Origin: Pontibacillus chungwhensis
Lineage (GTDB): Bacteria > Bacillota > Bacilli > Bacillales > BH030062
Length of the DNA stretch: 64,000 bases
NCBI RefSeq assembly: GCF_030166655.1
Contig: NZ_CP126446.1
Span: 248,001 to 312,000, forward strand
Direction: 5' to 3'
Part shown: positions 6,433 through 48,291 of the stretch, in pieces
Numbering within the stretch: position 1 is the stretch's first letter
How the letters are laid out: the number at the start of each line of letters is the position of its first letter
Notes under the pieces: model-generated
Told to the model about the DNA's origin: nothing
Databases searched by the model: none
The model's input: only the letters and a program-made list of their open reading frames with translations
Position numbers and translations under genes: made by a program

Positions 6433-6569
6433 AATCAGTTCTCCTTACTTAAAAAAAGTTGATATCAGCTTATTTCATTATACAATGAAACCAGTTCATT
6501 CATGTTACAAACTGCATGTTCAAACCAGAAACGGTTATCATGAATACATAAAGGAAGATGGTGGTATGG

Positions 6570-6926: not shown

Positions 6927-7000
6927 AAAGCTTGTCAGGCTAGTCTGCATAATCGCATACTTTGTCTCATATGATTTTAGTGCGGGTAGGAGGGAACGAT

Positions 7001-8515: not shown

Positions 8516-8569
8516 GTAAGGTGAGTGCGTTCCCTTTGTCCATTCAAATGAGACAAAGGAGTTGTCATT

Positions 8570-12812: not shown

Positions 12813-12817
12813 TGAAC

Positions 12818-13174: not shown

Positions 13175-13178
13175 GTGA

Positions 13179-13580: not shown

Positions 13581-13594
13581 AGGAGGAAATCAAG

Positions 13595-32835: not shown

Positions 32836-34248
32836 ATGAGCAAATTATCAAGTAAATGGCTCGTCGTTGTATCCGTCTTATTTGGAACATTTACAGTCAT
32901 TTTAAACAACAGCATGCTGAATCCGACGCTTCCGCGCTTTATGGAGATATTCGATGCTGATGCTGTAAGTGTAGGGTGGATGCTCACGATCTTTATGGTA
33001 GCCATGGGGATGACGATGCCGTTAACCGGTTTTCTTGGGGACCGTTTCGGAAAGAAGAAAGTGTATGTAACAGGTCTTGTGATCTTCTTAATCGGTTCTG
33101 TATCGGGGTCTTTATCGCCTACCCTGAGCCTCGTTATTCTATCACGGGCTGTACAAGGGGTTGCCGGTGGTTTAATGATGCCTATTGCCATGGCGCTGAT
33201 CTTTAATGCCTTTCCAAAGCACGAGCGAGGACTGGCTGTTGGTGTATATGGGGTTGCTGCGATGGTTGCACCTGCCATAGGTCCAACGGTAGGTGGCGTC
33301 ATTATTCAGTTTTTTGATTGGCCTTTTTTATTCTTATTTAATATTCCTTTTGGACTGATTGGTATTATTTTATCTTCTAAATATTTAGTCGAAACGGAAA
33401 AAAATCCTTCTCTTAAATTCGACACCATTGGCTTTATTTTGGTGACGATTGGTGTCGGAGGAATTCTCTTTGCACTTGGAAGAGGGAAGGAATTAGAGAC
33501 GTTACTAACGGCTAGTAACATAAGCCTGATCGTTGTTGGGATTCTTTCTGTTGTGGCGTTTGTTCTGGTGGAGAACCGAAAGAAACAACCGCTGCTCAAC
33601 TTATCTGTCTTTAAAGTTCCGACCTATGCCGTGTCTGTTGTCGTGACAGGAGCGGCTTCGATTGGGCTATTCTCAGGAATCTTCTTATTGCCGCTTCTCA
33701 TTCAGAACGTATACGGCTTAAGTGAGATTATGACCGGACTTCTCTTTCTCCCGGCTGCAGCGCTAAGCGGTGTATCCATGTCCATTGGTGGACGGATCCT
33801 TGATAAGAGAGGACCGAAATCGGTTATTCCGATTGGGTTATTCGTAATGGCTTCGGCTACAACAGCGCTCGGATTCCTGGAGCTGTCGACGCCTTACTGG
33901 CTCATTCTTCTATTAAACGCGGTTCGCGGAGCCGGTATGGGACTCAGCAATATGCCGGCCACAACGGCTGGTATGAATGCTATACCAGATGAGCTTGTCG
34001 CACAGGGGTCCGCGATGAACAACGTACTAAGACAGATGACGTCTTCTTTCGGTATCGTATTCTTCTCGATCTACTACGAAACAAGACGTGCGGTCATTGC
34101 AGCGGGTGAAGCTAATATGACAGAAGCCACGCTACAGACGCTGAATGAAGCCTTTCTAGTATCAGCTGTCGTGATTGCGTTAGCTATCCCATTCTCCTTT
34201 ATTATGAAAGGAGCAGACAGTTCTTCTGAAGAGGAAGGCGAATCCTGA
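32836..34248 (+). CDS. MFS drug transporter, DHA2-type (EmrB/QacA-like)
   Basis: 470 residues, about 14 hydrophobic segments. The motif between helices 2 and 3 is GFLGDRFGKKK; motif C (antiporter signature) region reads GVAAMVAPAIGPTVGG, and SRAVQGVAGGLMMP precedes it. Such pumps expel drugs or toxic compounds in exchange for protons. It is a single gene between rex and the ydiK-ydiL genes, where B. subtilis has tatAY-tatCY. Substrate unknown. Confidence 0.9.
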   Translation: MSKLSSKWLVVVSVLFGTFTVILNNSMLNPTLPRFMEIFDADAVSVGWMLTIFMVAMGMTMPLTGFLGDRFGKKKVYVTGLVIFLIGSVSGSLSPTLSLVILSRAVQGVAGGLMMPIAMALIFNAFPKHERGLAVGVYGVAAMVAPAIGPTVGGVIIQFFDWPFLFLFNIPFGLIGIILSSKYLVETEKNPSLKFDTIGFILVTIGVGGILFALGRGKELETLLTASNISLIVVGILSVVAFVLVENRKKQPLLNLSVFKVPTYAVSVVVTGAASIGLFSGIFLLPLLIQNVYGLSEIMTGLLFLPAAALSGVSMSIGGRILDKRGPKSVIPIGLFVMASATTALGFLELSTPYWLILLLNAVRGAGMGLSNMPATTAGMNAIPDELVAQGSAMNNVLRQMTSSFGIVFFSIYYETRRAVIAAGEANMTEATLQTLNEAFLVSAVVIALAIPFSFIMKGADSSSEEEGES

Positions 34249-34258
34249 TTGGATTAAG

Positions 34259-34290
34259 AAAGGGCCATCACTGGATGGCCCTTTCTTTTT
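34259..34290. terminator. Bidirectional terminator
   Basis: AAAGGGCCATC pairs with GATGGCCCTTT across ACTG, with T runs on both strands; it serves the MFS gene and the convergent membrane protein gene. Confidence 0.88.
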
Positions 34291-34708
34291 GTGAGGCGAT
34301 CGATTTTCTCCAATTGGCGATAAACAGATAAATGCCTGCTGCTGAAAGGAAACAAGCATGTAGGACAGGGGCTAGTTGTAAAAGAGCGACGCCTACTTTG
34401 TCTCCTGGTAGGTTTGTTGGTAAAAGGAGAAGATTTAACGGAATGGTTAGGATGAGTGAACCTGTTATCATTCCCCTTCCTGCGTTGCTGGGTAAGGTGG
34501 AGAGAGAAATGCATATAAGGGCTGTTGCGATTAAGAACAATACATGAGCGAAAAGAGCTTCAGAGACTGTAAAGGATATGGGGATGTCTGACATGATTAA
34601 TGTCTTGTAAGCAAACGCAATGAACCCCATACAGAAGCCAGTTGCTAAAAGAAACATACTGAGGATGCCTTGTAATAAAGTATTGATGAAACCACCACCT
34701 ATTAACAA
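34268..34708 (-). CDS. Small multi-pass membrane protein of unknown function
   Basis: 146 residues when begun at TTG 34708, which has AAAAGGA five bases upstream; an ATG at 34762 would add 18 polar residues but lies against the preceding terminator and lacks a site. Four hydrophobic segments are visible (about 2-30, 45-65, 75-97, 105-127), ending in a basic tail. I do not recognise the family. The 3' end overlaps the terminator stem. It follows the ydiK gene but is separated from it by a terminator. Confidence 0.6.
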   Translation of the reverse strand: MLIGGGFINTLLQGILSMFLLATGFCMGFIAFAYKTLIMSDIPISFTVSEALFAHVLFLIATALICISLSTLPSNAGRGMITGSLILTIPLNLLLLPTNLPGDKVGVALLQLAPVLHACFLSAAGIYLFIANWRKSIASQKERAIQ

Positions 34709-34762
34709 AATATTCCTTTTACCTATAGTAGCAAATGATGGGTGAGATGAACATGGCTCCAT

Positions 34763-34806
34763 TAAAATAAGCGGCTTCCCCGCATGGGGAGACCGCTTAT
34801 TTTTTG
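34763..34806. terminator. Terminator between ydiK and the next membrane protein gene
   Basis: AAGCGG...CCCC GCAT GGGG...CCGCTT with T-rich flanks on both strands. Confidence 0.75.
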
Positions 34807-34997
34807 TTGCTTTTATTCATCTTTAAATAGAGCATAAAAAGTCGAATTGCGACGGCGAAATTTACTGTCGCAACGAAAGAGCAAATGAGCGTAATTAAGT
34901 TCCAAATTGTCTCTTCTACACTAAGTATGGCGATATACGTAAACAAAATCCCCATAATAAAATAGAGGAATGCCATAAAGAATGGCGAAGTTTTCAT
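34797..34997 (-). CDS. DUF4305 membrane protein (YdiK-like)
   Basis: 66 residues, two hydrophobic helices (about 8-28 and 31-54), and a basic C-terminus (KMNKSNKK). Same position and size as B. subtilis ydiK before ydiL. ATG 34997 has GGAGG eleven bases upstream. Function unknown. Confidence 0.8.
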   Translation of the reverse strand: MKTSPFFMAFLYFIMGILFTYIAILSVEETIWNLITLICSFVATVNFAVAIRLFMLYLKMNKSNKK

Positions 34998-35004
34998 AAT
35001 AGGA

Positions 35005-35703
35005 TTAACCTCCAAACAGGATTGTTTGCACGTTTTGCTCTAGTTGTTCCATGTCTACTGTCATCTGCGCAATAATGACGAGGGAGTTCATGGTAGCGTG
35101 CGTAATAATCGGCACGATAATACGCTGTGTCTTTTCATAAAGAAAGGCAAAGACCAGTCCCATGGCTGCATATTTCAGCAGGTGTTCTGGCTCACCGTGT
35201 ACAATTCCGAAGATCCCGCCTGATACAAGAGCTGAAATAAGGAAGTTCGCATATTTACGTAATGTGCCAAATAGAATCTTTCGGAAGATGATTTCTTCAA
35301 GAATCGGAGCCACAATCGCAATAATGAGAATAAAGATCGGTGCTGCTTTGGCGATCGCCGATAGGTTTTGCGTGTTCTCTGAAATAGGATCTACACCAAA
35401 CACAAGCGATTCAATCACAGTAGCCAGGTATTGACTAAAGAAAGCAAGCAGAATCCCGATGAGTCCCCATTTAATATAAGAACCAATTCCCATCTCATAA
35501 TCCTGGCGTAAATCATTTTTAATATCTGGTTTTAGGATCAATGTAATGATGAGAAGCCCGATTACAAAGGAAAAGATCGTCCAACCGATCAGCCAGTTTT
35601 GAGGATTGGCCAGGTCGAGAGAAATGATGAAGTCCCCGACAGGTTTCCCGGATAACTGGACAAGGATATATGTTAAGATGACATACCAATAGCGCCTTGG
35701 CAT
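35005..35703 (-). CDS. CPBP-family intramembrane metalloprotease (YdiL-like)
   Basis: 232 residues, about seven helices. The CPBP motif EEIIFR (in APILEEIIFRKILFG) supplies the glutamates, and the histidines lie in GGIFGIVHG and PIITHATMNS. These proteins resemble Rce1 CAAX protease and often act in processing or immunity of peptides. AAAGGAG lies ten bases before ATG. It is co-directional with ydiK after seven bases and divergent from groESL, as in B. subtilis. Confidence 0.92.
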   Translation of the reverse strand: MPRRYWYVILTYILVQLSGKPVGDFIISLDLANPQNWLIGWTIFSFVIGLLIITLILKPDIKNDLRQDYEMGIGSYIKWGLIGILLAFFSQYLATVIESLVFGVDPISENTQNLSAIAKAAPIFILIIAIVAPILEEIIFRKILFGTLRKYANFLISALVSGGIFGIVHGEPEHLLKYAAMGLVFAFLYEKTQRIIVPIITHATMNSLVIIAQMTVDMEQLEQNVQTILFGG

Positions 35704-35867
35704 TCGGCAACGACTCCTTTATGAATTTTATACCTTTATCTTACGTATTGTAACACATTTAAAGAAGTGGAAAGAAACGTTTAAATCGCAAAAGATGAGT
35801 CATAATGGGTTGGGGGAGTAGGAATGGGACACGAGGAAATTTTTATGAAGAAAATGAATGTTTTCGC

Positions 35868-35896
35868 TTGCAAAATAGTTAGAGATTCATTATTAT
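35868..35896 (+). promoter_or_regulatory. groESL sigma-A promoter
   Basis: TTGCAA, 17 bases, TATTAT, directly before the CIRCE element. Confidence 0.85.
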
Positions 35897-35906
35897 AATA
35901 ATTGTG

Positions 35907-35933
35907 TTAGCACTCATCTAATGAGAGTGCTAA
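35907..35933 (+). promoter_or_regulatory. CIRCE operator (HrcA binding site)
   Basis: Perfect TTAGCACTC-N9-GAGTGCTAA. HrcA bound here represses groESL until heat shock. Confidence 0.98.
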
Positions 35934-35982
35934 TAAAATCAAAACAAGCATAGGTTCAAACCATTTGAGGAGGGTGTCTGAT

Positions 35983-36267
35983 TTGTTAAAGCCATTAGGT
36001 GATCGTATTGTAATTGAGGTAGTACAACAAGAAGAAAAGACCGCGAGCGGTATTGTTCTTCCTGACTCTGCGAAGGAGAAGCCTCAAGAAGGTAAAGTTG
36101 TTGCGGTAGGTTCTGGTCGTTTGGCGGATAATGGTGAAAAGGTTGCACTAGAGGTAGCCACTGGCGACCACATCATCTTCTCAAAATTTGCAGGTACTGA
36201 AGTGAGTTACGAAGGTACTGAATACTTAATTTTACGTGAAAATGACATTTTAGCAGTCATTAACTAA
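35983..36267 (+). CDS. groES: Co-chaperonin GroES
   Basis: 94 residues, beginning [12 protein letters not shown], with the mobile loop (about 17-32) and GGIV-like [12 protein letters not shown] 35983 has GAGGAGGGTG upstream and gives the exact family length; the in-frame upstream codons would cover the ribosome site. It caps the GroEL ring. Confidence 0.97.
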
Positions 36268-37962
<1,695 letters not shown>

Positions 37963-38038
37963 GGTTTTCCTTACACATTACCCTAGCTCATTGTGAGACT
38001 TTTTCATAAATAACTCTCATAATAATTTGAGTAATAGG

Positions 38039-38086
38039 AGAGGCTTCTTAGTAGTTAAATACGCTACTGAGAAGCCTCTTTTTTTT
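38039..38086 (+). terminator. groESL terminator, member of a repeated stem-loop family
   Basis: AGAGGCTTCTTAGTAG pairs with CTACTGAGAAGCCTCT (one G-T pair), then eight T. Closely related to the element at 48007-48050. Confidence 0.92.
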
Positions 38087-38089
38087 ACT

Positions 38090-38660
38090 CGGATATATTT
38101 CTAGTTGTCTCCTTATAAATTCGTACAGAGTAAATATTGCTAATTACTTATTAACCCATAAATATCTATATAATGAGGGCGGGGAGTCTGTATATAAGAG
38201 AGGCTATTAAGGGGAACGCCATGAATATTTCTACAAAAACACATAAAGATGGTTACTGTTGTTCGATAGTGCCCACCTTTCATAATCGTTTGGATTCGAT
38301 TTATAACAAGATGAGGAGGAGGTGATGTACTGAATCTTAAAAATTTCGCTATTATGATGGCTGGTTAGTGTGAATTTAAGACTTTAGGGGAGGGCAGAAA
38401 GGGGTCCGTGGTATAAAATGAGGTGAGATTGAAGAGACTCCAGGGCGTTAGAAGAATGTTAAATCACCTATTAACTACTAGAGATATGGCAATTGAAAAG
38501 GCAAAGACTATCAATATTTTATCAAATACGACTATAATAAAATGGTAATGATAGAATTTTGAAATTAAATAGTATAGATTAAACAAAGGTAGTTTTAGTT
38601 TAGGAAAAAGGTGGATAACATATAATGGAAGAATGTATAATTTATCTAACCAAATTTTTT
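38090..38660. other. AT-rich left flank of the accessory island
   Basis: About 570 bases with no confident gene. Two short readings have plausible ribosome sites: 38221-38325 (34 residues, MNISTKTHKDGYCCSIVP...) behind AAGGGG, and 38429-38548 (39 residues, from TTG) behind GAGGTGAGA. Neither resembles a family I know; they may be gene remnants left by insertion events. Confidence 0.4.
38599..38626 (+). promoter_or_regulatory. Candidate promoter of the thymidylate-type island
   Basis: TTTAGG, 16 bases, TATAAT, 51 bases before the phosphoesterase gene. The -10 box is perfect, the -35 weak. Confidence 0.4.
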
Positions 38661-38676
38661 TAGGGAGGGATTGGTT

Positions 38677-39516
38677 ATGGTAAATATTCTACATATATCT
38701 GATATTCATTTTCCTAGTGAACATATGGTTGTAACTGAAAGAGAGCTAAAACAAGGAATAGTGAATTTTTTAGACAATACTGATGATGAAAACATTTATT
38801 TGCTTATTAGCGGTGATATTACATTTCAGGGTAAACCTCAAGGGTATAAGGAAGCAACACTATTTTTTAAGGAAGTAATTGAAAAATCTAAAGGTAAAAT
38901 AGATCCTAAGAATATCCTTTTATGTCCTGGAAACCACGATATTGTAGAGGGAAGTAATTTTGAACTTTTTGATAAATTTTCATATACTCTTAGGGGTGAC
39001 AGTAACTTTTCATACAACAATGGGCCTTCATATGTTATTAAAAGGATGGAGAACGCTCTTTTTCTAGGCATTAATTCTGTATACCATCTAGATCATCAAT
39101 TTGGATTTGTAAATATAGAAGAACTAGGAGAGAAACTCAAAAGTATGAGCATTAATGAAGGTGTAAGGAGAATAGCATTTACTCACCATCATCTAGTTAA
39201 CCAGTTTCAAAGAGATACTTCATCAATAAGAAATGCCAGTCAATTAATTTCGCTATTAGATCACTATGGCTTTGAAACTATATTTCATGGTCATCAGCAT
39301 ACTAATTCAAATCTTATTCTCGGGAAATCACAGATGTTTACGATTGGAGTAAGTACACCAGGATTTGAAATGCAGGGTTATACAAATGGGATAAATTATT
39401 ATAAGATCAATCAAGAAGGGTTAGAGTCGAATAGGTACGTTTATTCCAGAGATAATGAATCGGGCGGCCTTTTGGGAAGTTTTAAAGTACTAGACTCAAA
39501 ATATTATACAAGGTGA
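38677..39516 (+). CDS. Calcineurin-like metallophosphoesterase
   Basis: 279 residues. All metal-binding blocks of the family are present in order: D9-x-H11 (HISDIHF), D47 (ISGDITFQG), N86-H87 (PGNHD), H170/H171 (FTHHH) and H206-x-H208 (HGHQHT). The pattern is that of Icc/CpdA-type phosphodiesterases, which can act on cyclic nucleotides, dinucleotides or nucleotides. No signal peptide; cytoplasmic. ATG 38677 has GGGAGGG seven bases upstream. First gene of a tight run with the thymidylate-kinase-like and synthase-like genes, so a nucleotide substrate is likely (inference). Base use is much more AT-rich than groEL. Confidence 0.88.
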   Translation: MVNILHISDIHFPSEHMVVTERELKQGIVNFLDNTDDENIYLLISGDITFQGKPQGYKEATLFFKEVIEKSKGKIDPKNILLCPGNHDIVEGSNFELFDKFSYTLRGDSNFSYNNGPSYVIKRMENALFLGINSVYHLDHQFGFVNIEELGEKLKSMSINEGVRRIAFTHHHLVNQFQRDTSSIRNASQLISLLDHYGFETIFHGHQHTNSNLILGKSQMFTIGVSTPGFEMQGYTNGINYYKINQEGLESNRYVYSRDNESGGLLGSFKVLDSKYYTR

Positions 39517-39524
39517 GTTGAATA

Positions 39525-40151
39525 ATGAAAAGTTTATTTATTGTATTTGAAGGTATTGATGGATCAGGAACTTCTACACAAGCAAATTTACTCAAGAATT
39601 ACTTTTTAAATAATTCAATAAAATCTATAGTCACTTCAGAGCCATCAGAAGGACCTATTGGCAATATAATTAGGCAAGGGATGAAGCAAAGAATATTTTT
39701 CACTAATAACAAAAGACATTTTGATCAACAAATGGCGTATTTATTTGCTGCAGATAGGCATGACCATTTGTATAACCAAATAGATGGGGTATTTAAAAAA
39801 GTAGAAGAAGGTTTCCAGGTAATTAGTACAAGGTATTTTTTCTCTTCATTTGCTTATCATTGTGATGATGAAGAAGATTTAGAATTAGTTACTAATTTAA
39901 ACAATAAATTCCCAAATCCGGACATAGTAATTTATATAGATAACCCAATTGAAGTATCTTTAGAAAGAATCAGTCAACGTTCGGTCCAAGATGTTTATGA
40001 AAACAAAGAAAAGCTTGTGAAAGTGAAAAATAATTATGAAGAGATATTCTCAAAATATAGTGGGAACTTAATTAAAGTCAAAGGAAATAATGATCCGATG
40101 GTTATACATAACCAAATTATAAATTATATTGAGGAGGTTTATAATGGATGA
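39525..40151 (+). CDS. Thymidylate-kinase-like P-loop protein with altered nucleotide-binding loop
   Basis: 208 residues, near the length of dTMP kinase (about 205-215). FEGIDGSGTSTQ occupies the P-loop (8-19), but the usual lysine is T16. ADRHDH (76-81) matches the substrate-binding block; the DR[YH] motif reads T102-R103-Y104 with Asp lost. The LID region keeps arginines (SQRSVQDVYENKEK). TMP kinases phosphorylate dTMP; relatives act on modified dUMP in phages. The substitutions suggest a changed substrate, or loss of classical catalysis. It starts nine bases after the phosphoesterase stop, with AGGTGAG upstream, and overlaps the ribosome site of the next gene. Confidence 0.85.
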   Translation: MKSLFIVFEGIDGSGTSTQANLLKNYFLNNSIKSIVTSEPSEGPIGNIIRQGMKQRIFFTNNKRHFDQQMAYLFAADRHDHLYNQIDGVFKKVEEGFQVISTRYFFSSFAYHCDDEEDLELVTNLNNKFPNPDIVIYIDNPIEVSLERISQRSVQDVYENKEKLVKVKNNYEEIFSKYSGNLIKVKGNNDPMVIHNQIINYIEEVYNG

Positions 40152-41070
40152 ACATGAATTTATACAGGTAGAAAATTTCGAAGACGTAATTTCATTTGCA
40201 AAAGAAACAGTAAACCAGAATCATTCAGATGGTTACTACCTCAATTTTAGTCTTAAAGTACAATTCGATATTAATCTAATTAACAAGCCACAACTATTGG
40301 ATGTAGCTACAGAAGCTGAAGATTGGCAAAATCCTAAACAGCCAGAGCACTTGCATATTAATCATGGAGAATATATCACAGAAAAGGGTGTTAGATACAT
40401 AATAGAGGAATTAAAACGCAAGAGCCATTCTAATAGGGCGCTTATGTCATTGATAAATCAGGGTGATATAATAGAAAGTGGTGATAACCCAATTCCTTCA
40501 TTTATGGTATTGCAATTTAGTCTAGAAGGTACAGAGTTATATATTACTACGTATTTTAGGGCGCTGGAAGTATCAAGATTCCTTCGAATAAATATAGAAG
40601 AAATTAGGTTAATTGCCAAAGAAATTTATGATGAAATCACGAACCTATCTAAAGTTAAATTAAATATTTTTGCGTTTCGTGCTTATGTAAAAGAAAATCA
40701 AAGTACATTAAAAAGGCAAGAGATAGACTTATTACAAGAGCGTCATATCTTAACGTTTATGCAAAACGAACCAAACAAACTTATTGCATTGCTTAAAGAA
40801 AAGAAAGAAGAAAGTACTGTAATTGAAAATAATTCATTGCACCATATATATGAAATAATGAATGATTCATACGTAAATGAATCTATACACTATTGTTTTA
40901 AAGGGAAATTAGTTAACCATTTATTAGAAAAATGTCTAGCATCAAGTCAGGAGCTTATAAATTTACGTGAAAAAACTTCCCACAGTGATCGAATTGAAGA
41001 AATTAATTTAACTTATTTAAGATTACTTGAAAATTTTATAGGGGAAATCGAAAAATGTTTTTATCAATAA
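40144..41070 (+). CDS. Divergent thymidylate-synthase-fold protein lacking the catalytic cysteine
   Basis: 308 residues, not recognised as a known named family. Residues 83-185 align by eye with the ThyA-type protein encoded two genes on: IIEELKRKSHSNRALMS with AIEGLRNKPESRRIVLT, PIPSFMVLQFSLEGTELYITTYFRA with DLPCNISIMLKVRNEKLDITIINRS, then FL and an amphipathic helix. At the catalytic cysteine there is S119, one of the paired arginines is missing (N97-R98), and the HxY motif is not kept. A catalytically dead or repurposed paralogue is inferred. The C-terminal 120 residues are charged and helical. ATG 40144 has GAGGAGG upstream. Confidence 0.65.
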   Translation: MDEHEFIQVENFEDVISFAKETVNQNHSDGYYLNFSLKVQFDINLINKPQLLDVATEAEDWQNPKQPEHLHINHGEYITEKGVRYIIEELKRKSHSNRALMSLINQGDIIESGDNPIPSFMVLQFSLEGTELYITTYFRALEVSRFLRINIEEIRLIAKEIYDEITNLSKVKLNIFAFRAYVKENQSTLKRQEIDLLQERHILTFMQNEPNKLIALLKEKKEESTVIENNSLHHIYEIMNDSYVNESIHYCFKGKLVNHLLEKCLASSQELINLREKTSHSDRIEEINLTYLRLLENFIGEIEKCFYQ

Positions 41071-41200
41071 ATGAAAAATGGATGAATTAATTAACAACTG
41101 GCAGACATGTAATAAAAATTTCTAGCAAAACCAACATATATTAAGGAACTTATTTCATATAAAATGGAAAATAAATACATATTTGCGAGGTGTAAGCTTA

Positions 41201-42541
41201 ATGAATGTATTTAAAGGTGATAATTTCTCTGTTATTTATTATGAAATGTTGAAGTATGGTTTTCATAGTTTAAATTCTTATAAGGAATCAAGAGTTGGAG
41301 AAGTGAAAGATCTTGGTCCGGTTTATTTTGAGATAAAAAGTGATAAATTTAGATTTCCATATCTAAATAAAAGAGCAATAAATCCTTTTTTCGCTTTAGC
41401 TGAATTCTCCTGGTTAATTACGGGTTCTAATCAAGTAAAACCCTTGCAATTTTTTATAAAAGGTTATGATAAATATTCTGATGATGGTGAAACGTTAAAC
41501 GGTGCTTATGGACATAGATTGCGATATAAGTTTGATGTAGATCAATTAGAAAAAGCAATTGAAGGATTAAGAAATAAACCTGAATCTCGAAGAATCGTAC
41601 TAACGATGTGGTCAGTCGAGGACTTGCTTGCTGATTCAAATGATTTACCATGTAACATTTCTATTATGTTAAAAGTCAGAAATGAAAAGCTGGATATAAC
41701 TATTATAAATAGGTCAAATGATTTGTTTCTTGGTGTACCTTATAATGTTTATGTATTCTATCTACTACAGATTTATATATCAGAGAAAATAGGATGCGGT
41801 TTAGGGGTGCAACGCCACTTTACTGATTCGTTACATATTTATAGAAGGGATATGGATAGAATAGGCGAGATAATTCAATCAAATAGCAAGAGATCAATTA
41901 TCGCTACTTCTGAACAATTTCCTTTATTTGATAGCGCTTCATACGTTGAAGTTGACCATAAAAAAATAATTGATCAAGATTATGATGGGATATCTAATGA
42001 AGATATCATTAATTTTTTCAAATCCTATATTGAATATAAAAAAACTTCAGACTTTGATAGAGCAATTGAATTGTTGCCAAAAAATCAGCTTGGTTATGTC
42101 GCATATCTTTGGTATCGTGAGAAAAGAGATTATGATGTATCTAATAGTTTTTTTGATGAAGTAAGACAGGGGATCGGTTACATGAAGAATGACTTTGAGA
42201 AAATATATACAATTAAATATGAATCAGAAGATAGTATTAAAGAATTTATTTTAAACATCTCAAAGGAACACCATCATTTATATGAATGTTTCTTGGAAAT
42301 AATTAATACTAAATCAGATTTCTATTCAATAAAAGAAGAAAATATTGATAAAGGTAGGTTAGTACAGGCAGTCTTTCTATCGATTGTAATGTCTAGTGTG
42401 GCATCAACTATAGCTCCTGACATTAATCGACTATTTTCTGTAAGAATAGAAAATGTGGCTAAAAGCTTGGGACTAGAAGTTAAAGATATAATACATTTCA
42501 CGCAGTTTGAGACGAAATTTACAACACTAATTAATTCATAA
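41201..42541 (+). CDS. ThyA-type thymidylate synthase / nucleotide methylase with C-terminal extension
   Basis: 446 residues against about 264 for ordinary ThyA. The N-terminal ThyA domain (about 1-230) keeps catalytic C151 (DLPCNIS), paired R130-R131 (PESRR), the phosphate/nucleotide block R171-S172-N-D174 (NRSNDLFLG), N182 (GVPYN) and H212-x-Y214 (LHIY). Asn182 (where dCMP hydroxymethylases have Asp) favours a uracil base. His after Cys, usual in ThyA, is Asn152. Residues 230-446 form an unrecognised, mainly helical region. GAGGTG lies nine bases before ATG 41201. AT-rich like its neighbours; 130 bases separate it from the preceding gene. Confidence 0.85.
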   Translation: MNVFKGDNFSVIYYEMLKYGFHSLNSYKESRVGEVKDLGPVYFEIKSDKFRFPYLNKRAINPFFALAEFSWLITGSNQVKPLQFFIKGYDKYSDDGETLNGAYGHRLRYKFDVDQLEKAIEGLRNKPESRRIVLTMWSVEDLLADSNDLPCNISIMLKVRNEKLDITIINRSNDLFLGVPYNVYVFYLLQIYISEKIGCGLGVQRHFTDSLHIYRRDMDRIGEIIQSNSKRSIIATSEQFPLFDSASYVEVDHKKIIDQDYDGISNEDIINFFKSYIEYKKTSDFDRAIELLPKNQLGYVAYLWYREKRDYDVSNSFFDEVRQGIGYMKNDFEKIYTIKYESEDSIKEFILNISKEHHHLYECFLEIINTKSDFYSIKEENIDKGRLVQAVFLSIVMSSVASTIAPDINRLFSVRIENVAKSLGLEVKDIIHFTQFETKFTTLINS

Positions 42542-42585
42542 AAAGGGTAACGCAATACAATAAAATTCGGTTAAACGCAGTTTAA

Positions 42586-42689
42586 GATGTTACGTATAGG
42601 ATTAAAGCCCCCTCGTTGTACGGCGCTTTTCGCTTACCACATGTAAGATATTACACACTATCACCAAAGGGGCATTATGATGTAACATC
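42586..42689 (+). other. Nested inverted repeats behind the ThyA-type gene (possible structured RNA)
   Basis: Outer arms GATGTTAC (42586) and GTAACATC (42682); inner arms GCCCC (42608) and GGGGC (42668). About 55 bases lie between the inner arms. It is neither a terminator nor an encoded protein, and may be a structured RNA or the edge of a mobile piece. Confidence 0.35.
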
Positions 42690-42760
42690 GTCTTAGGAAC
42701 ACTATAATGTCCAAGGTTTTAGATTAAATGTTAGAAAAACGCTAACATTCTGATAGGAAA

Positions 42761-42807
42761 AGAGGCTTTTCACTAATTTACACAACTAGTGAGTAGCCTC
42801 TTTTTTG
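42761..42807 (+). terminator. Terminator-like stem-loop at the right edge of the island
   Basis: AGAGGCTTTTCACTA pairs with TAGTGAGTAGCCTCT with a small internal mismatch, then TTTTTT. Resembles the groESL terminator at the island's left edge. Confidence 0.8.
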
Positions 42808-43060
42808 TACTTATGGATCCGGGTTATCCCCTAAGCTAAAAGTGTTTCGTTTAGAGTATTTCTTGCAGAAGAAGCGATGGTCCTTATGTGAAAAGGAGGC
42901 GCTAGAGCTAGACCCGCCCTTTAAGTACCACGGGGACGGGCCCCTTGACACATGATTAGAAGTGCCAGTGAACCCGCCCCCGCGCTTCTACAATAGCCCA
43001 GGGGTAGACTTCCAGTATGAATGAAGGTTAAAATCATAGTTCAACAACCAGAAGAAGAAG
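42808..43060. repeat. Intergenic segment with degenerate GCGCTAGA/CCCGCCCC repeat
   Basis: No gene seen. The stretch 42898-42990 carries GGCGCTAGAGCTAGACCCGCC and AACCCGCCCCCGCGCTTCT, variants of the element seen at 44467-44496 and 51164-51194. Confidence 0.5.
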
Positions 43061-44284
43061 GTGTTCATCATTTTACATAATCCAACAGGGAAAGAAAGAA
43101 TAGGGTTAGCGTTTTTACTAGGAATGCTTGGAATACTAGGACCACTCAACATCGATATGTATCTCCCCAGCTTTCCGGGGATTGCATCCGATTTAGAAAC
43201 GAGTGCGTCACTCGTGCAGCTCAGCTTAACGACCTGTCTGATCGGACTAGCTGTCGGTCAGATTGTCGTTGGACCCATCAGTGATTCGCAAGGGAGAAAG
43301 AAACCGTTAATCATCTTCCTATCCCTCTTCGCGGTGGCGTCCTTTGCTTGTGCGCTTGCGCCGAATATCTATGTACTCGTCATCGCTCGATTTATCCAAG
43401 GGTTTACGGCTTCTGCTGGTGTCGTCCTTTCCAAGGCGGTCGTGCGAGACGTATTTATAGGAAGGGAATTGACGAAGTTCTTCGCCTTACTGATGGTGAT
43501 CAATGCGACGGCTCCGATGATTGCGCCGATCACAGGTGGGGCGATTTTGCTGTTACCGTTCGCCACATGGGAGACGATCTTCCTCTTCCTAAGTATCGTA
43601 GGGTTCGCCATCGTGTTCACCGTAGCAGGCAAATTACCTGAGACGCTTCCGGTAGAAAACAGGATCCCGAGCTCCGTGAAGGAATCGGTTCGGACCATTG
43701 GCCGTCTGTTGAAGGACCGATCTTTCATCGGATACGCCTTAACGATCGGGTTTGTCCACGGCGGGAGTTTCGCTTACGTTTCTGGAACGCCATTTGTTTA
43801 TCAGGGAATCTATGACGTATCTCCTCAGGCGTTCAGTTTCTTGTTCGGAGTGAACGGCCTTGCGATCATTACGGGTAGTTTTCTAGTCGGCCGTCTTGGC
43901 GGCATTTTTCACGAGAGAAGCTTGCTGAGAAGTGCTGTACTGATTGCGGTTAGTGCGACGGGGGTTCTATTAGTGATGACGCTTCTCGAAGGACCACTGT
44001 ATTCCATCGTCGTGCCGATCTTCATCTATATGACAGCGATGGGGATGGTGTTGACCAGTACGTTCACTTTAGCGATGGAGCATCAAGGCCACAGAGCAGG
44101 GAGTGCCAGTGCTGTGCTCGGCATGCTGCCCCTATTGTTTGGCGCGGTTGTTTCGCCACTGGTCGGTCTTGATGAGACGACGGCTGTCCCAATGGGAGCT
44201 ATTCTATTTACGACGGCATCGATCGGTGCTACGTTCTTCTTCACGTTGACGAAGAAAGACGCAAGAAAAACATATGCGGGATAA
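43061..44284 (+). CDS. Bcr/CflA-family MFS drug efflux transporter
   Basis: 407 residues, 12 hydrophobic segments. Near the N-terminus GPLNIDMYLPSFPGI is the family's mark, followed by GPISDSQGRKK between helices 2 and 3 and RFIQGFTASAGVVLSKAVVRD. Members export chloramphenicol, bicyclomycin or related compounds. The start GTG 43061 has only a weak purine-rich site (GAAGAAGAAG) directly before it, so the exact start is uncertain. Single-gene unit with the terminator at 44363. Confidence 0.9.
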   Translation: MFIILHNPTGKERIGLAFLLGMLGILGPLNIDMYLPSFPGIASDLETSASLVQLSLTTCLIGLAVGQIVVGPISDSQGRKKPLIIFLSLFAVASFACALAPNIYVLVIARFIQGFTASAGVVLSKAVVRDVFIGRELTKFFALLMVINATAPMIAPITGGAILLLPFATWETIFLFLSIVGFAIVFTVAGKLPETLPVENRIPSSVKESVRTIGRLLKDRSFIGYALTIGFVHGGSFAYVSGTPFVYQGIYDVSPQAFSFLFGVNGLAIITGSFLVGRLGGIFHERSLLRSAVLIAVSATGVLLVMTLLEGPLYSIVVPIFIYMTAMGMVLTSTFTLAMEHQGHRAGSASAVLGMLPLLFGAVVSPLVGLDETTAVPMGAILFTTASIGATFFFTLTKKDARKTYAG

Positions 44285-44362
44285 CATGAAAGCTCTTTTC
44301 GTCCTGGGAAGCATAGTTACGGTTCCTGTGCTTCCTTTAAAATTCTAACAATATGAGTCATA

Positions 44363-44409
44363 AAAGAGAGTTCTCAATAGTTGGACAAACTATTAAGAAC
44401 TCTCTTTTT
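44363..44409 (+). terminator. Terminator stem-loop, repeated family
   Basis: AGAGAGTTCTCAATAGTT pairs with ACTATTAAGAACTCTCT, then TTTTC. Shares CTCAATAG-TG and the loop word ACAA with 51051 and 53036. Confidence 0.88.
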
Positions 44410-44466
44410 CTTTACTAGTAGACTTATGTTGATTTTTTAGTTATAAGGTAGAGTCGCTTTTGTAAA

Positions 44467-44496
44467 TAGAAAGCACTAGAACCGTCCCTGCTCTTT
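44467..44496. repeat. Short intergenic repeat (GAAGCGCTAGAACCGTCCC family)
   Basis: AAGCACTAGAACCGTCCCTG; compare 51164-51194. Confidence 0.55.
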
Positions 44497-44497
44497 C

Positions 44498-46018
44498 TCA
44501 ATGCCTTACAATATAATAAGGACGCATCATTTCATAATCTTCATGCTCAAGAATATGGCAGTGCCATACAAAAAGGCCGGAGTAGGGACCAAATGTCATA
44601 ATGATCCTTGTGATCTCATGTGGGTTGGCGCGTACGGTGTCTTTCCATCCTCGCTCGTTTAAATCAGGGAGGGTGCGTGGGCCGGTAGTGACTATTCTTC
44701 CTTCTTTATTATAGATGTCAGCATCGAATGGCTGGCGATCGACGATTTGAAATTGTACGAGATGCAAATGGATGGGGTGGGTGGCGTTGGAAACATTGAT
44801 GAGTGTCCATAATTCTGTGCTGCCTAAAGAAGGTATCTCTGAAATCGGATCTGCCCACACCCGATTATCTAACAAGTGGATCTCACGTCCATAAGGGTCA
44901 GGTCTCATATTGAGAAGTAAGTTCCGATTTCTCTGGTAGGTTAGTAGCTTCGGGATAACGGATAATTGAGCTGGGATTGAACTTGTGTCCGGGCATGTAA
45001 GAGGTTTGATTACTCGGAATTCCATCACGGGCCCTTCTGGATTAGGGTCTACAGGAGGGAAAGGAGGCTTGGGATTATTCTCGATCACGATAGATTGTTG
45101 AAAACTCCCGGAAAAATCAATGATCACATCTGCCCGCTCAGCGGGGGCGAGAAGGAGTTCAGGAACGAGAATGGGCTGCTCTAACAATCCTTGATCCGTA
45201 CCTATTTGAATAAAGGGTAGTTCGTTTGAGAGGGACAATCGATAGATTCGAGCATTCGATCCATTTAGAATGCGGAACCGGTACCGTCTAGGTTCGACAT
45301 TCATAAAAGGCCACACTTTCCCGTTCACCAAAATGGTATCCCCTAAAAACTCTGGTACGACGGAAGGATCCACATCAGGAACAGGTGGCTTAGGTTGAGG
45401 TGGGTAGTAAAGGCTGCCATCAGAGTTAAAAGAACGGTCTTGAATGAGTAAGGGTAGATCATAAGGGGCTTTTGGCAGATTTAGACAAGCTTCTGCTGGA
45501 TCATGAATGATGTACATTCCCGCTAGACCGGCGTATATATTGAGGCGGGTAATCCCGACGGCATGATCGTGATACCACAAAGAGGTGCCTTGTTGACGAT
45601 TGGGATACGTGTACAATTGGTTTGTGAAAAAGGGGCCGACTTCTTGAAAGCCATTCGTAAACCAGGCTTCAGGATAACCGTCACTTGTGTCCGGTGTGAT
45701 CCCTCCGTGAAGATGGACGACTGTGCGGACCTCGGGTACATCTTTTCCTGCTCCGTGAACAGTGGTATCAATAGGGAGAAAATGTTTCTCGGGCAGTTCA
45801 TTTTTCCATAATACATGAACCGTTTGATTTCTTTCTACATGGAAGGTAGGGCCTGGATATTGGCCGTTATATCCCCAAACCTTTGTTGGAGGAAGGTCGC
45901 GGTGTAGCTTTTGATAGGTTTCCTTCATCGTTACTTCATAATAGGGGGCTTGGTTATAAGAACAAATAGGGTGAATCGCGTTCATTATTGGGAGTTCATC
46001 TACAAACTTTTCAAGCAT
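44498..46018 (-). CDS. cotA: CotA-type multicopper oxidase (spore coat laccase-like)
   Basis: 506 residues, near B. subtilis CotA (513). All four copper blocks are present: HLHGG (102-106), WYHDHA (148-153), HPIHLH (414-419) and HCHILEHEDYEMM (486-498), the last with the Cys-His-Met ligands of type 1 copper. The N-terminus MLEKFVDELP is the coat-protein form without signal peptide. CotA oxidises phenolics and makes brown pigment in the spore coat, or oxidises bilirubin and manganese. AGGAGAG lies before ATG. Monocistronic. Confidence 0.93.
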   Translation of the reverse strand: MLEKFVDELPIMNAIHPICSYNQAPYYEVTMKETYQKLHRDLPPTKVWGYNGQYPGPTFHVERNQTVHVLWKNELPEKHFLPIDTTVHGAGKDVPEVRTVVHLHGGITPDTSDGYPEAWFTNGFQEVGPFFTNQLYTYPNRQQGTSLWYHDHAVGITRLNIYAGLAGMYIIHDPAEACLNLPKAPYDLPLLIQDRSFNSDGSLYYPPQPKPPVPDVDPSVVPEFLGDTILVNGKVWPFMNVEPRRYRFRILNGSNARIYRLSLSNELPFIQIGTDQGLLEQPILVPELLLAPAERADVIIDFSGSFQQSIVIENNPKPPFPPVDPNPEGPVMEFRVIKPLTCPDTSSIPAQLSVIPKLLTYQRNRNLLLNMRPDPYGREIHLLDNRVWADPISEIPSLGSTELWTLINVSNATHPIHLHLVQFQIVDRQPFDADIYNKEGRIVTTGPRTLPDLNERGWKDTVRANPHEITRIIMTFGPYSGLFVWHCHILEHEDYEMMRPYYIVRH

Positions 46019-46100
46019 TCGTATCTCTCCTAACGTACATGACGTTCTTCTTCTAACGTATTAAGGGGAGAGGTGAATTAAAACAAGTTTTGATATAAAA

Positions 46101-46138
46101 GTATCCCCCCAGAACTTGTGTCTGAGGGGGGACTTTTA
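46101..46138 (-). terminator. Terminator of czcD
   Basis: AGTCCCCCC...GGGGGGATACTTTTAT on the minus strand, right after the czcD stop. Confidence 0.8.
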
Positions 46139-47077
46139 ATGGGAATGATCGTGATGATCATTCTTATTATCATTACAGAGAATTGAATTGTCATGAGGAT
46201 GGTCACTTGATTCTAGTTGTATAGTGATGTGACCGATTCCCTTTTCACGAAGATCATCTTCTATTCGTTTTAATAAACTTTGACACTCTTCAATTGTAAG
46301 GTTTTGGATAACGACAGCGTGGCAGGAAAGTGCATTTTGATCACTGGTAATGCTCCAAACATGCAAGTCATGAATATCTTTGATTTCACCCGTGCTTTGA
46401 ATGGTTTCTGCAATCTCCTCAAAATCTATATCTTTAGGTGTTCCTTCCATAAGGACATGGACAGACTCTTTGGCTACCCGCCAGCCACTAATGAGAACTA
46501 ATACCGCCACAATCACGCTGGCTAATGGATCCGCCCATCCCCAATTAAAGAACATGATAAGAAGGGAAGCAACAATAGCTCCAATTGATCCTAACAGGTC
46601 ACCGAGCACATGCAGAAATGCAGCTCTCAAATTTAAATTATGTTCGGTATCTCCTCGCATTAACATCCACGCAACAACGATATTTACGATCAAACCAATG
46701 ATACCTATGATTAACATCCCAATAGATGCTACCTCAGGAGGTTCAATAAAACGTTTATACGCTTCATAGAAAATGTAAAGAGAAATCAACACCAGGGTAA
46801 CCCCATTAAATAAAGCAGCAAGAATTTCAAATCGTTTGTACCCATAGGTTTTACTGTAATTGGCTGCTTTTTCTCCCATAATAAAGGCTAATACTCCGAC
46901 ACCGAGGGATACAGAATCACTCAACATATGTCCTGCGTCAGATAGCAAGGCTAAACTATTGGTTAAGAAACCTCCTATTGCCTCGATGATCATATAAACG
47001 GTTGTAATGATAAAACTGATCAATAAAGCTTTTTTGTTTGCTCCATGTGAATGGTCGTGTCCATGGTCATGTCCCAT
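46136..47077 (-). CDS. czcD: Cation diffusion facilitator (CzcD-type Zn/Co/Cd efflux)
   Basis: 313 residues with six helices. Histidine-rich ends (MGHDHGHDHSHG at the start, HHDHSH at the end) capture metal; the HxxxD metal sites are in ALLSDAGHMLSD (helix 2) and AFLHVLGDLLGS (helix 5). A cytoplasmic ferredoxin-like domain follows from about 205. Exports divalent metal in exchange for K+/H+. AGGAGG lies eight bases before ATG. Divergent from a ZIP-family importer gene. Confidence 0.93.
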   Translation of the reverse strand: MGHDHGHDHSHGANKKALLISFIITTVYMIIEAIGGFLTNSLALLSDAGHMLSDSVSLGVGVLAFIMGEKAANYSKTYGYKRFEILAALFNGVTLVLISLYIFYEAYKRFIEPPEVASIGMLIIGIIGLIVNIVVAWMLMRGDTEHNLNLRAAFLHVLGDLLGSIGAIVASLLIMFFNWGWADPLASVIVAVLVLISGWRVAKESVHVLMEGTPKDIDFEEIAETIQSTGEIKDIHDLHVWSITSDQNALSCHAVVIQNLTIEECQSLLKRIEDDLREKGIGHITIQLESSDHPHDNSILCNDNKNDHHDHSH

Positions 47078-47116
47078 GTTTTATGCCTCCTTTGGGAACT
47101 ATTTTTTCATTTCAAT

Positions 47117-47141
47117 ATATGCACACTTAATCATATGTACA
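47117..47141. promoter_or_regulatory. Direct repeats between czcD and the ZIP gene (candidate metal-regulator site)
   Basis: ATATGCACA (47117-47125) and ATATGTACA (47133-47141) are spaced 16 bases apart in the shared upstream region. Binding by an ArsR-type repressor is a guess. Confidence 0.3.
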
Positions 47142-47229
47142 TGTTACAAGCATGAAGGAGCAACGTCAAACATAAGTCAGTAATATGGGGAATGGGTATA
47201 GAAGTTAAACTAGTAATGGAGAGATGATA

Positions 47230-47949
47230 ATGGGATCTTCTTGGATGTTAGGGGCTATCGCTTCTGGAATCGGCATAGGGATAGGAGGCGCTATTGCTTG
47301 GATTTTAAAAGGGCTGAGAATTAACTTTATTTATGCACTATCCGCAGGAATCATACTGGGTCTGCTGTTGTTTGAAATGATTCCTGAAAGCATTGGGTTA
47401 GGTGGATGGTGGGTATTTCTGTTAGGCGCCACAATTGGCATAGCTATTTTTCAATACATTCACCGGTCCTTAGACAGGATTACAATTATTACTAGTAGCC
47501 CTCAGAAAGATATTCTAGTTCATACAGGAATCCTTTTAACCGTTAGCATATCTATTCATAACTTTCCGATGGGATTTGTACTGGGGTCAAATATTAAGCC
47601 AGAGTTAGCCGGAGCTATGTTGTTGACTCTGCTACTACACAATATTCCTGAAGGCATAATAATTTTTACTCCCTTATTTCTATCTGGGTTTGGAATATTA
47701 ACTTGGATGATAGGTACAGTTATGGTTACGCTCCCTATATTAGTAGGTTCTCTTCTTGGGAAGTTAATCGGCATTGGCTATCCATATTTATTATCTTTTA
47801 TTATAAGCGCCACGATTTCGGTTATTTTTATGGTAGCAACCCAGGAACTATTTAAAGAGTCTGTGCGCCATTCTTCTCTGCGCTTCAGTTTAATAGTAGG
47901 TACAGCAGGTTTGGTTAGTGTTTACTTGTTCATATTGGCGGTAAGCTGA
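47230..47949 (+). CDS. ZIP-family metal transporter
   Basis: 239 residues, eight hydrophobic segments. Helix 4 has SIHNFPMGF and helix 5 has LHNIPEG, the paired ZIP metal-binding signatures (the glutamate expected after HNFP is Met here). ZIP proteins normally bring Zn2+ or other divalent ions into the cytoplasm. ATG 47230 is chosen since GGAGAG ends six bases upstream; ATG 47224 abuts it. Its pairing with czcD suggests metal balance. The missing acidic residue might alter metal choice. Confidence 0.88.
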   Translation: MGSSWMLGAIASGIGIGIGGAIAWILKGLRINFIYALSAGIILGLLLFEMIPESIGLGGWWVFLLGATIGIAIFQYIHRSLDRITIITSSPQKDILVHTGILLTVSISIHNFPMGFVLGSNIKPELAGAMLLTLLLHNIPEGIIIFTPLFLSGFGILTWMIGTVMVTLPILVGSLLGKLIGIGYPYLLSFIISATISVIFMVATQELFKESVRHSSLRFSLIVGTAGLVSVYLFILAVS

Positions 47950-48291
47950 ATCTGTGCCTCTGCAAAACTGTGTCATAAACAAAACTCAACAATTTGAATA
48001 ACAGTAGGGGCTTCTCAGTAGTTAATAAATTATTGAGGAGCTTCTTTTTTGTGTTGGGTTTTAATTATAGATACCAAATTTTTATGTGTACCCCTTCTCC
48101 TGCATATTCACTATGCAGAGGTGGTTCTCTGATAAATAGAGCGTGATAGAATTGTTCGCGCACTTCAAGCGGTTGAATATACAACTATTGAATCTATTCT
48201 AGGAGAAGGATGTCATTTATAATAGAATCACATAACAGAATTTGTGCTGAACGACCAGTACTCGAAGAAGAATGAAGGGGGATTGGGTAAT
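47950..48291. other. Intergenic region with repeat-family terminator and a possible gene remnant
   Basis: 48007-48050 is a terminator of the groESL-type family. The 27 codons ending at 48222 read ERDRIVRALQAVEYTTIESILGE, protein-like but with no start or ribosome site, so possibly the tail of a lost gene. Nothing else is recognised. Confidence 0.4.
48007..48050 (+). terminator. Terminator stem-loop, repeated family
   Basis: GGGGCTTCTCAGTAGTT, short loop, ATTATTGAGGAGCTTC, then TTTTTT. The 40 bases before it also match those before the groESL terminator. Confidence 0.8.

Follow-up and report, generated by a model that had tools for sequence, protein, structure and literature searches.

Modified pyrimidine nucleotides protect phages against their hosts, and infections of the SPO1 type involve dTTPase and dTMP-nucleotidase activities. 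Similarly, in cells infected with phage phiW-14, dTTP is lost through a dTTPase and 5-hydroxymethyl-dUTP (hmdUTP) is present, while the DNA of phage SP8 contains 5-hydroxymethyluracil (hmU) (PMC5977210, PMC7653180 for SP8; PMC5977210 for phiW-14). On the bacterial side, the validated E. coli anti-phage systems described in the DefensePredictor study include thymidylate synthase (TS) and 5-hydroxymethyluracil kinase, and the legend of its Fig. 3C lists dNMP kinase, 5hmdU kinase and NMAD among the abbreviated domains (PMC13092281). The same study reports that the metallophosphatase residues are essential in the systems DS-8 and DS-9 (PMC13092281). The locus analyzed here lies in a stretch of 64,000 nucleotides (nts) of Pontibacillus chungwhensis (contig NZ_CP126446.1, positions 248,001 to 312,000), referred to as the window, and consists of four genes encoding a metallophosphoesterase (MPE), a dTMP-kinase-family protein (TMK), a thymidylate-synthase-fold protein (TSL) and a ThyA-type enzyme.

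This four-gene set is one version of a recurring operon and exceeds chance, because versions of it recur in 19 further loci. The operon is almost certainly a real, mobile and conserved system, and its surroundings make it probable that it serves in defence. A reading made from the sequence alone had described four co-directional AT-rich genes at 38677-42541, which is confirmed by the open reading frames (ORFs), their strand and their GC content. The features of the operon are as follows:

38677-39516, + strand, MPE, a calcineurin-type metallophosphoesterase of 279 amino acids (aa), identified by Pfam, NCBIfam and motifs.
39525-40151, + strand, TMK, a dTMP-kinase-family protein of 208 aa, identified by TIGR00041 and motifs.
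40144-41070, + strand, TSL, a predicted thymidylate-synthase-fold protein of 308 aa with a helical C-terminal part, identified by profile, AlphaFold2 and structural matches.
41071-41200, + strand, a spacer of 130 bp directly 3′ of TSL, where a MazG/dUTPase-like gene sits in the other 19 loci.
41201-42541, + strand, the ThyA-type gene, encoding a hydroxymethylase-like enzyme of 446 aa, identified by PF00303, phrog_5131, residues and tree.

Intergenic gaps are tight save the 130 bp before the ThyA-type gene, and inspection by eye found a Shine-Dalgarno-like sequence ahead of each of the four ORFs. The ThyA-type and TMK genes are extra copies, because the genome encodes its own ThyA and Tmk elsewhere.

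A relative of TSL (37% identity over 96%) is encoded on two E. coli IncHI1B plasmids, where the order is metallophosphoesterase, TSL, a MazG-domain gene and a gene annotated as thymidylate synthase. The same gene set is found on 5 of 5,426 E. coli chromosomes, and one island that was opened ends with two integrases. On plasmid pEC2-4 (locus L002, 16210-17144) the ThyA-type gene is broken into two frames; it is annotated as intact in each of the other E. coli copies that were opened, five in number (L003, L005, L006, L007 and L094). A sample of the phylum yielded genome G107 (L008), with the order MPE-TSL-MazG-radical SAM (S-adenosylmethionine), and a sample of the class yielded genome G1099 (L055). 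The motif RALEVxxFLxIN (with the Ile relaxed), common to the TSL of the window, E. coli and G107, was scanned over an 84,980-species genome collection, giving 30 stretches, of which 16 encode a TSL by profile and 14 do not. The records come from Geobacter, Pseudomonas (two), Aliarcobacter, Pedobacter, Saprospiraceae, Gordonia, Clostridiales, Lachnospiraceae, Oscillospiraceae, Peptostreptococcaceae, Fusibacter, Oceanirhabdus, Desulfosporosinus and Bacillus sp., and by these names the system is spread over several phyla. With E. coli counted once, there are 20 independent loci (the window, E. coli, L008, L010, L024, L029, L039, L040-L051 and L055), all found through TSL, which is thus present by construction.

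The composition of these loci is observed directly, as are the recurrence of the set, the residues of the hydroxymethylase type, the predicted TSL fold and the island with its hotspot. The commonest order is MPE-TMK-TSL-MazG-ThyA. L048, from Bacillus sp. FJAT-27264, has five genes, and L042 is among the loci of the radical-SAM type. MPE lies within the cluster in all 20 loci, adjoining TSL, one TMK gene away from it or fused to it, so that the genes do co-occur elsewhere. The two proteins form a single polypeptide in 6 of the 20 loci, namely in six of the seven radical-SAM loci, the fusion of L010 being counted although the contig cuts its MPE part. A modifier gene is always present: 13 loci carry the ThyA-type enzyme and seven a radical-SAM protein, none having both and none neither in the DNA seen, where the contigs of L010, L024, L029 and L044 end close by and might continue into a second modifier further out. 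The MazG/dUTPase-like gene follows TSL directly in 19 of the 20 loci, the window alone lacking it, and TMK is present in 12.

TSL loci are rare and patchy, like accessory genes. Besides the window, TSL was found in 0 of 60 relatives, in at least 1 of 397 other genomes of the phylum sample and at least 1 of 397 of the class sample, and in 0 of 397 others around a Pseudomonas seed among the candidates scored; in these three samples at most five first-look candidates were scored per genome, which makes the counts lower bounds. Among 50,697 phage records, no relative of TSL was found at an E-value of 0.01. Across 2.9 million viral contigs there was one match to the motif, outside any open frame of at least 60 aa, and no ORF at that place matches the TSL profile. 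The fused MPE-TSL protein gave one partial match in phages, restricted to its MPE portion (MT838439.1, 1-468, 30.9% identity, an unannotated record of 5.3 kb). Scans of viral contigs with TSL peptides and a single-protein scan of genome contigs returned chance patterns only and were discarded. In addition, inspection by eye of the ORFs listed for 33000-48000 recognized no phage structural gene. The set does not look like a prophage remnant, the possibility which the sequence-only reading had held against itself.

MPE matches Pfam PF00149 (Metallophos, 1.2e-12). Its motifs DxH, GD, GNHD and HH are kept in 19 of 19 aligned proteins and HGHxH in 18 of 19; all metal-site motifs are present in the window protein, bearing out its earlier description as a complete calcineurin-type phosphoesterase. 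The NCBIfam models DS9_1_antiphage (NF053862, 7.2e-23) and DS8_antiphage (NF053861, 4.2e-15) also match, both under their cut-offs. A fused MPE-TSL protein of 582 aa was modelled as a single chain (pLDDT 89.7, pTM 0.75). The closest structures to its MPE part are the YydD-YydB chain (Z 23.2), GpdQ (22.7), SMPDL3A (21.6) and Rv0805 (21.6), with the SbcD/Mre11 nucleases further down the matches, while its TSL part matches AfhB (Z 17.7). In the Geobacter locus L040, a 5′-nucleotidase of the PADLOC candidate family PDC-S08 (1.2e-133) is encoded at 12724-13653, directly upstream of MPE on the same strand, and is a possible further member of this operon.

By sequence, TSL resembles TS only weakly: the protein alone matches Pfam Thymidylat_synt at 0.016, under the curated cut-off, and TIGR03283 at 3.5e-5, and against a profile of 19 TSL relatives E. 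coli TS variants score 0.0037-0.0045 (two of them with Cys replaced by Ser) and the wild type 0.055. The alignment of this profile covers what we take to be the phosphate-binding Arg and the uracil-binding Asn of TS. Ser119 of the window protein occupies the position of the catalytic Cys, being aligned to C146 of E. coli, and the Cys is missing from 19 of 19 aligned TSL, in which Pro118, Ser119, Gln124, Arg139, Glu142 and Asn150 are invariant. TSL of the window was modelled as a single chain with AlphaFold2 from 19 sequences (pLDDT 92.2, pTM 0.86), and the matches of the model are AfhB (Z 15.7, rmsd 3.1, 176 aligned residues, 12% identity), MilA (Z 15.4, rmsd 2.7, 174 aligned) and TS (Z 14.2, rmsd 2.8, 171 aligned). 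AfhB and MilA are thus tied as the nearest structural relative in the model, and no AfhB sequence was matched by the TSL profile at an E-value of 10. From residue 7 to about residue 186, the model gives good support to a fold of the TS superfamily, the comparison barely covering the helical part beyond. Homology with TS, weak in the sequence, is firm in the predicted fold.

The earlier description of TSL as a TS-fold protein without its cysteine is therefore sustained by Ser119 and by the predicted fold. The label of a dead TS was softened: the nearest fold is that of a flavin-dependent dCMP hydroxylase and TSL might still catalyze something, its inactivity being unproven because AfhB shows that folate-free chemistry takes place on TS folds. 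The safer inference from the model is that TSL is a protein of nucleotide-binding type and no thymidylate synthase.

The ThyA-type protein matches PF00303 (1.8e-33), the match ending at profile position 227 of 266, and phrog_5131 (4.4e-62), and taken alone it has 3,168 phage matches. Its closest solved structure is MilA, a CMP 5-hydroxymethylase (1e-21), the first TS coming at 1.3e-19. About 215 residues follow the TS-like part, the last 166 of which have no Pfam match, and in two Pseudomonas loci this C-terminal part is apparently a separate small gene, as judged from sequences read by eye. The TS profile matches stop short of the C-terminus in all five of the 13 system proteins that were scanned (at most 269 of 279, in L055), and the C-terminal tail that closes the TS active site appears to be missing from the ThyA-type proteins. 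In MilA, a helical C-terminal domain replaces the TS tail (PMC5175136).

The catalytic Cys and the Arg and Asn substrate residues are present in the window protein (C151, R171, S172, D174, N182, H212 and Y214). Asp148 stands three residues before Cys151, and an Asp is found at this position, that of Leu143 in E. coli TS, in 13 of 13 system proteins. Both Trp80 and Trp83 of TS are replaced in all 13, His147 is replaced by Asn in 12 and by Ala in Gordonia, the Asn of the uracil position and the Ser of the sugar position are found in all 13, and Arg126 and Arg127 are present in 13 and 12, respectively. In work on MilA, the Asn is said to mark uracil substrates, and the Ser and Arg deoxyribose (PMC5175136). 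A hydroxymethylase signature proposed from the T4 dCMP hydroxymethylase (dCH) combines an Asp three residues before the Cys with a Ser or Thr two residues before a Tyr (PMC6400193). Its first half, as Asp or Glu before the Cys, is found in 13 of 13 system proteins and in all six phage proteins of the same group.

This grouping comes from a maximum-likelihood tree of 29 proteins (the 13 system proteins, phage proteins, TS, T4 gp42 and five plasmid TS-like proteins). Support of 97/93 separates the 13 system proteins and six phage proteins (SP8, M6 and relatives) from TS, the four TS form a clade at 100/100, and three system proteins are nearer the phage ones (81/78). The placements of the long branches (T4 gp42, Gordonia and others) are unsure. 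The five plasmid TS-like proteins fall outside the system and phage group. M6 presumably has hmU DNA, as SP8 does. Residues and tree together make it likely that the ThyA-type enzyme has hydroxymethylase activity and makes 5-hydroxymethyl-dUMP, and they support the analogy with phage hydroxymethyl-dUMP synthesis that had been drawn beforehand. A full or normal thymidylate synthase was rejected for the fourth protein on account of the Asp at -3, the replaced Trp80 and Trp83 and the early end of the TS match, and the earlier wording of a full ThyA-type enzyme should give way to hydroxymethylase-like.

The MazG-like partner has ExxE..ExxD in every one of 18 aligned relatives; the L039 protein passes the cut-offs of both dUTPase_2 and MazG, and the E. 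coli one is just under both. In the window, a profile of the 18 relatives found no match. A short open stretch near 41080 in the 130-bp spacer was suggestive of a relic but unalignable, and no relic is claimed. Outside the island, the genome has two dimeric-dUTPase genes (C1:3014354-3014839 and C1:660103-660627), which could stand in for the missing gene. The radical-SAM proteins, which take the place of the ThyA-type enzyme, keep CxxxCxxC and further C-terminal Cys in 6 of 6 aligned sequences. The one of G107 has no close named relative, its best match being TIGR03977 (8e-23, 80.7 vs 267.9 bits).

TMK belongs to the dTMP kinase family by its matches to Pfam Thymidylate_kin (7.9e-40) and TIGR00041 (162.7 bits against a cut-off of 83.25). 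Of the earlier description as a dTMP-kinase-like P-loop protein, family membership stands, and the P-loop Lys and also the DRY Asp are missing: the window protein reads GSGTSTQ, with Thr for Lys, and TRY for DRY. The Lys is lost in 9 and the Asp in 8 of the 12 TMK, both being kept in L041, L044 and L050. TMK was not found in five loci whose surroundings were seen (E. coli, L008, L042, L043 and L046), and the contigs of L010, L024 and L029 stop too early to decide. The separate Tmk of the genome has an ordinary P-loop. As a control, 19 Tmk could be parsed from 27 other loci, of which 18 have the Lys (one has Val) and 15 the Asp (three have Glu and one Ser). In genome G061 (L091), the only Tmk match has a GSGVTTQ P-loop with an intact DRY, which means that the Lys may be absent from an apparently ordinary Tmk. 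A pseudokinase was rejected as a certain reading of TMK on the grounds of this Val for Lys and of the variable DRY Asp in ordinary Tmk. Small proteins are encoded 3′ of TMK in L041 (12804-13286, 161 aa) and in L050 (4468-4926, 153 aa), two loci that are related; neither has a Pfam match, and they are a possible extra component.

The operon occupies an island behind groEL, whose features are the following:

37963-42988, accessory segment from groEL to a gene of the major facilitator superfamily (MFS), delimited by blastn breakpoints against G006 and G005 and by the drop in GC.
38039-38089, + strand, terminator-like stem behind groEL, the left copy of a 51-nt repeat.
42761-42811, + strand, right copy of the 51-nt repeat (75% identity), located towards the far end of the island.

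GC content is 30.6% for 38090-42760 and 43.7% for the rest of the window. The repeat near both ends is perhaps a trace of the insertion of the segment. Promoter- and terminator-like matches are not more frequent than in shuffled sequences (one terminator-like site found vs 2.0 expected), and Rfam gave no match at the gathering threshold in 37900-43060.

The comparison of the groEL site covered eight relatives. Against the two nearest by groEL (98%; G006 and G005), blastn shows homology up to the end of groEL and again from about 42989, ahead of the MFS gene also found in the window; the DNA in between is other cargo. The cargo of G006 (L102) includes a Pycsar cyclase (PycC, 3.8e-122), and the site of G002 (L105) carries an integrase and, behind it, QatA (split over two frames), QatB, QatC and QatD. 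An integrase is also found in G003 and integrase-like ORFs, by eye, in G004, the sites of G001 and G007 having genes that look ordinary by eye. The groEL-adjacent site is therefore variable, with defence systems in at least two of the eight relatives, and is a defence hotspot in the genus. PADLOC was run on 10 proteins from four of the sites, of which five are the Qat proteins of one site.

Among the other loci, integrases lie within about 6 kb of L045, L049, L051, L046 and L008. Upstream of L008 are a TrlF-family (TrlF/Ppl-like) ATPase, above the NCBIfam cut-off, and a match to PDC-M02B, HsdR is encoded near L042, and the E. coli island has a SEC-C ATPase with a Cap4-like stretch just under the cut-off. 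Of 10 neighbours of other loci compared with PADLOC, four gave strong, three weak and three no matches. Together with Pycsar and Qat in two congeners, these defence genes near the relatives lend support, by context, to the accessory or defence role that had been suggested from the position behind groEL. In the Pedobacter locus L041, the region directly upstream of the operon (4848-8748) encodes another phosphoesterase together with an ORC-CDC6-like ATPase and a CARF6 protein, a trio that resembles a separate system. Two clusters on plasmids of S. salivarius (L095) and Geobacillus (L097) contain TS-like proteins with DIPCT around the Cys, next to PqqD, QueA-like and CYTH genes, and resemble nucleoside-modifying or antibiotic clusters.

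The mechanism favoured here, and offered tentatively, is that of a mobile anti-phage operon built on an MPE-TSL core, which would rewrite or deplete the thymidylate pool. We infer each reaction, the trigger, the order of the steps and the defence role from the gene content and its context. Upon infection, the MazG/dUTPase-like pyrophosphohydrolase would convert dUTP and/or dTTP to the monophosphates. TSL would bind a nucleotide of the dUMP type and direct MPE to remove or cleave it, making MPE-TSL the acting or sensing part. The modifier would convert the leftover dUMP to a 5-substituted nucleotide, which would be 5-hydroxymethyl-dUMP in the ThyA-type version and, by pure inference, a different 5-substituted product in the radical-SAM version. 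The TMK relative and host kinases would then raise this nucleotide to the triphosphate, so that the phage would run short of thymidylate and be confronted with a wrong nucleotide, comparable to the effect of hmU phages on the pool of their host. A broader proposal is held with slightly less assurance still: the operon would stand for a new class of immunity, in which a phage-like thymine-replacement pathway on mobile islands is used against phages, a TS-fold recognizer steers a phosphoesterase, and the non-standard nucleotide of an exchangeable modifier poisons, starves or marks phage DNA synthesis.

Several observations weigh against this mechanism. The replacement of the hydroxymethylase by a radical-SAM protein lacks an explanation. 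No accessory is strictly needed, because TMK was not found in five loci and MazG is absent from the window. TMK in the clade of the window is without two motif residues and is possibly not a kinase. The signature Asp is not confined to the system and phage group: four of the five plasmid TS-like proteins have it as well (the fifth could not be parsed), which slightly lowers confidence in the hydroxymethylase. The Ser or Thr two residues before the Tyr fails, with Gly in the window protein and Ala in the SP8 phage protein, and this half of the signature may be specific to dCMP enzymes. T4 gp42, a proven dCMP hydroxymethylase, falls outside the system and phage group on a very long branch. As for the context, the groEL sites of G005 and G008 gave no PADLOC match among the three proteins searched, and the neighbours submitted to PADLOC and Pfam were picked by eye, which gives an association and no rate.

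Among the alternatives, the one that survives best is signalling, although it is unlikely. The modifier, with TMK, would make a nucleotide messenger, and TSL would be the receptor that switches on MPE as a nuclease or phosphodiesterase effector, the depletion of the pool being incidental. The existence of the MPE-TSL fusion, the retention of pocket residues in TSL without the catalytic Cys, and the resemblance of the MPE domain to GpdQ, SMPDL3A and, lower down, SbcD/Mre11 are all consistent with such a scheme. The MazG-type pyrophosphohydrolase of 19 loci suits the editing of a pool better, and no receptor-type domain was recognized apart from TSL. An improbable second alternative sees TSL, the altered TMK and the ThyA-type protein as decoys that mimic nucleotide enzymes and sense phage inhibitors or nucleotides, with MPE as the effector. 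It would account for the lost P-loop Lys and DRY Asp in most TMK and for the missing Cys in every aligned TSL. However, the catalytic motifs are intact in MazG, MPE and the radical-SAM proteins, as is the Cys in the ThyA-type proteins, and the same motif losses occur among the 19 parsed Tmk of other loci (one without the Lys, four without the Asp), so a dead enzyme is not implied.

Slightly less probable again is the biosynthesis of a toxic or antibiotic nucleoside against competitors, comparable to mildiomycin or bacimethrin. Of the solved structures, MilA of mildiomycin synthesis comes closest to the ThyA-type enzyme, and plasmids carry other mobile TS-like clusters that include PqqD- and QueA-like genes. 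In contrast, the Ser and Asn predict a deoxyuridine substrate, unlike that of MilA, the setting is of the defence type, and an unsystematic inspection by eye of the surroundings of 15 stretches showed no transporter, resistance or tailoring gene that recurs. Very improbable is the sanitation of damaged pyrimidine nucleotides with no defence role; the MazG and dUTPase families are house-cleaning enzymes, and oxidized thymine gives rise to hmdU, but a hydroxymethylase would produce hmdUMP rather than remove it, and housekeeping does not fit a rare and mobile distribution (0 of 60 relatives, 5 of 5,426 E. coli genomes). A remnant of a phage with modified DNA is scarcely credible: the ThyA-type protein and TMK do have phage relatives, but TSL was not found in the phage collections searched, no structural phage gene was recognized by eye in the ORFs of 33000-48000, and unrelated bacteria carry the same set in different surroundings.

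Should the pool-rewriting mechanism hold, bacteria would have turned the modified-pyrimidine chemistry of phages on the phages themselves, a TS-fold protein without its Cys would gain a use, and two unrelated enzymes, one folate-dependent and one radical-SAM, would occupy a single slot of an immune operon. It also raises the testable question of whether hydroxymethyl-dUMP is made on purpose by a bacterium during infection.

Comparison with described systems places the operon near several of them. No named system or paper with this gene set was found among the results listed by component-name searches of 5.39 million open papers, nor in PADLOC or NCBIfam, in agreement with the sequence-only reading. 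PADLOC gave partial or weak matches only for the four proteins: PDC-S60 for MPE (8.6e-14, over 95 of 1027 positions), PDC-M51B (4.2e-15) and VakA (3.5e-13) for TMK and none for the ThyA-type protein. TMK-family models apart, no anti-phage model of PADLOC or NCBIfam was above its cut-off or spanned most of both protein and profile, and none of the NCBIfam anti-phage TS models matched the E. coli copy.

The operon shares with the hmU-phage pathway (SPO1/SP8 and phiW-14, with dUMP hydroxymethylase, kinase and dTTPase) genes of the hydroxymethylase type, of the kinase family and for a pyrophosphohydrolase. It differs in being bacterial and mobile, in its radical-SAM alternative and in an MPE-TSL core that was not found in phages. 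The CMP hydroxymethylases MilA and BcmA are likewise TS-fold hydroxymethylases with a helical C-terminal domain replacing the TS tail (PMC5175136); unlike them, the ThyA-type enzyme has determinants for uracil and deoxyribose, and no antibiotic cluster was recognized. For TSL, the phage dCMP hydroxylase AfhB heads the structural matches, with MilA and TS following within 0.3-1.5 Z.

DS-8 and DS-9 have a related MPE domain, and the SMPDL3A-like fold reported for DS-8 is also matched by MPE. However, their profiles score far under cut-off (81.2 vs 420 bits and 54.6 vs 790 bits), and they have NACHT or HAD as partner, for which no Pfam or NCBIfam match exists among the four window proteins, the partner here being of the TS fold. 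The TS-containing systems of DefensePredictor have a TS domain in common with the operon, and kinship is possible; of the domains named in the legend, neither 5hmdU kinase nor NMAD was recognized in the operon. The operon is treated here as a variant of nucleotide-directed defence, since it may overlap with the DefensePredictor TS systems. Its nearest precedents are the metallophosphatase and thymidylate-synthase-containing defence systems that were validated recently.

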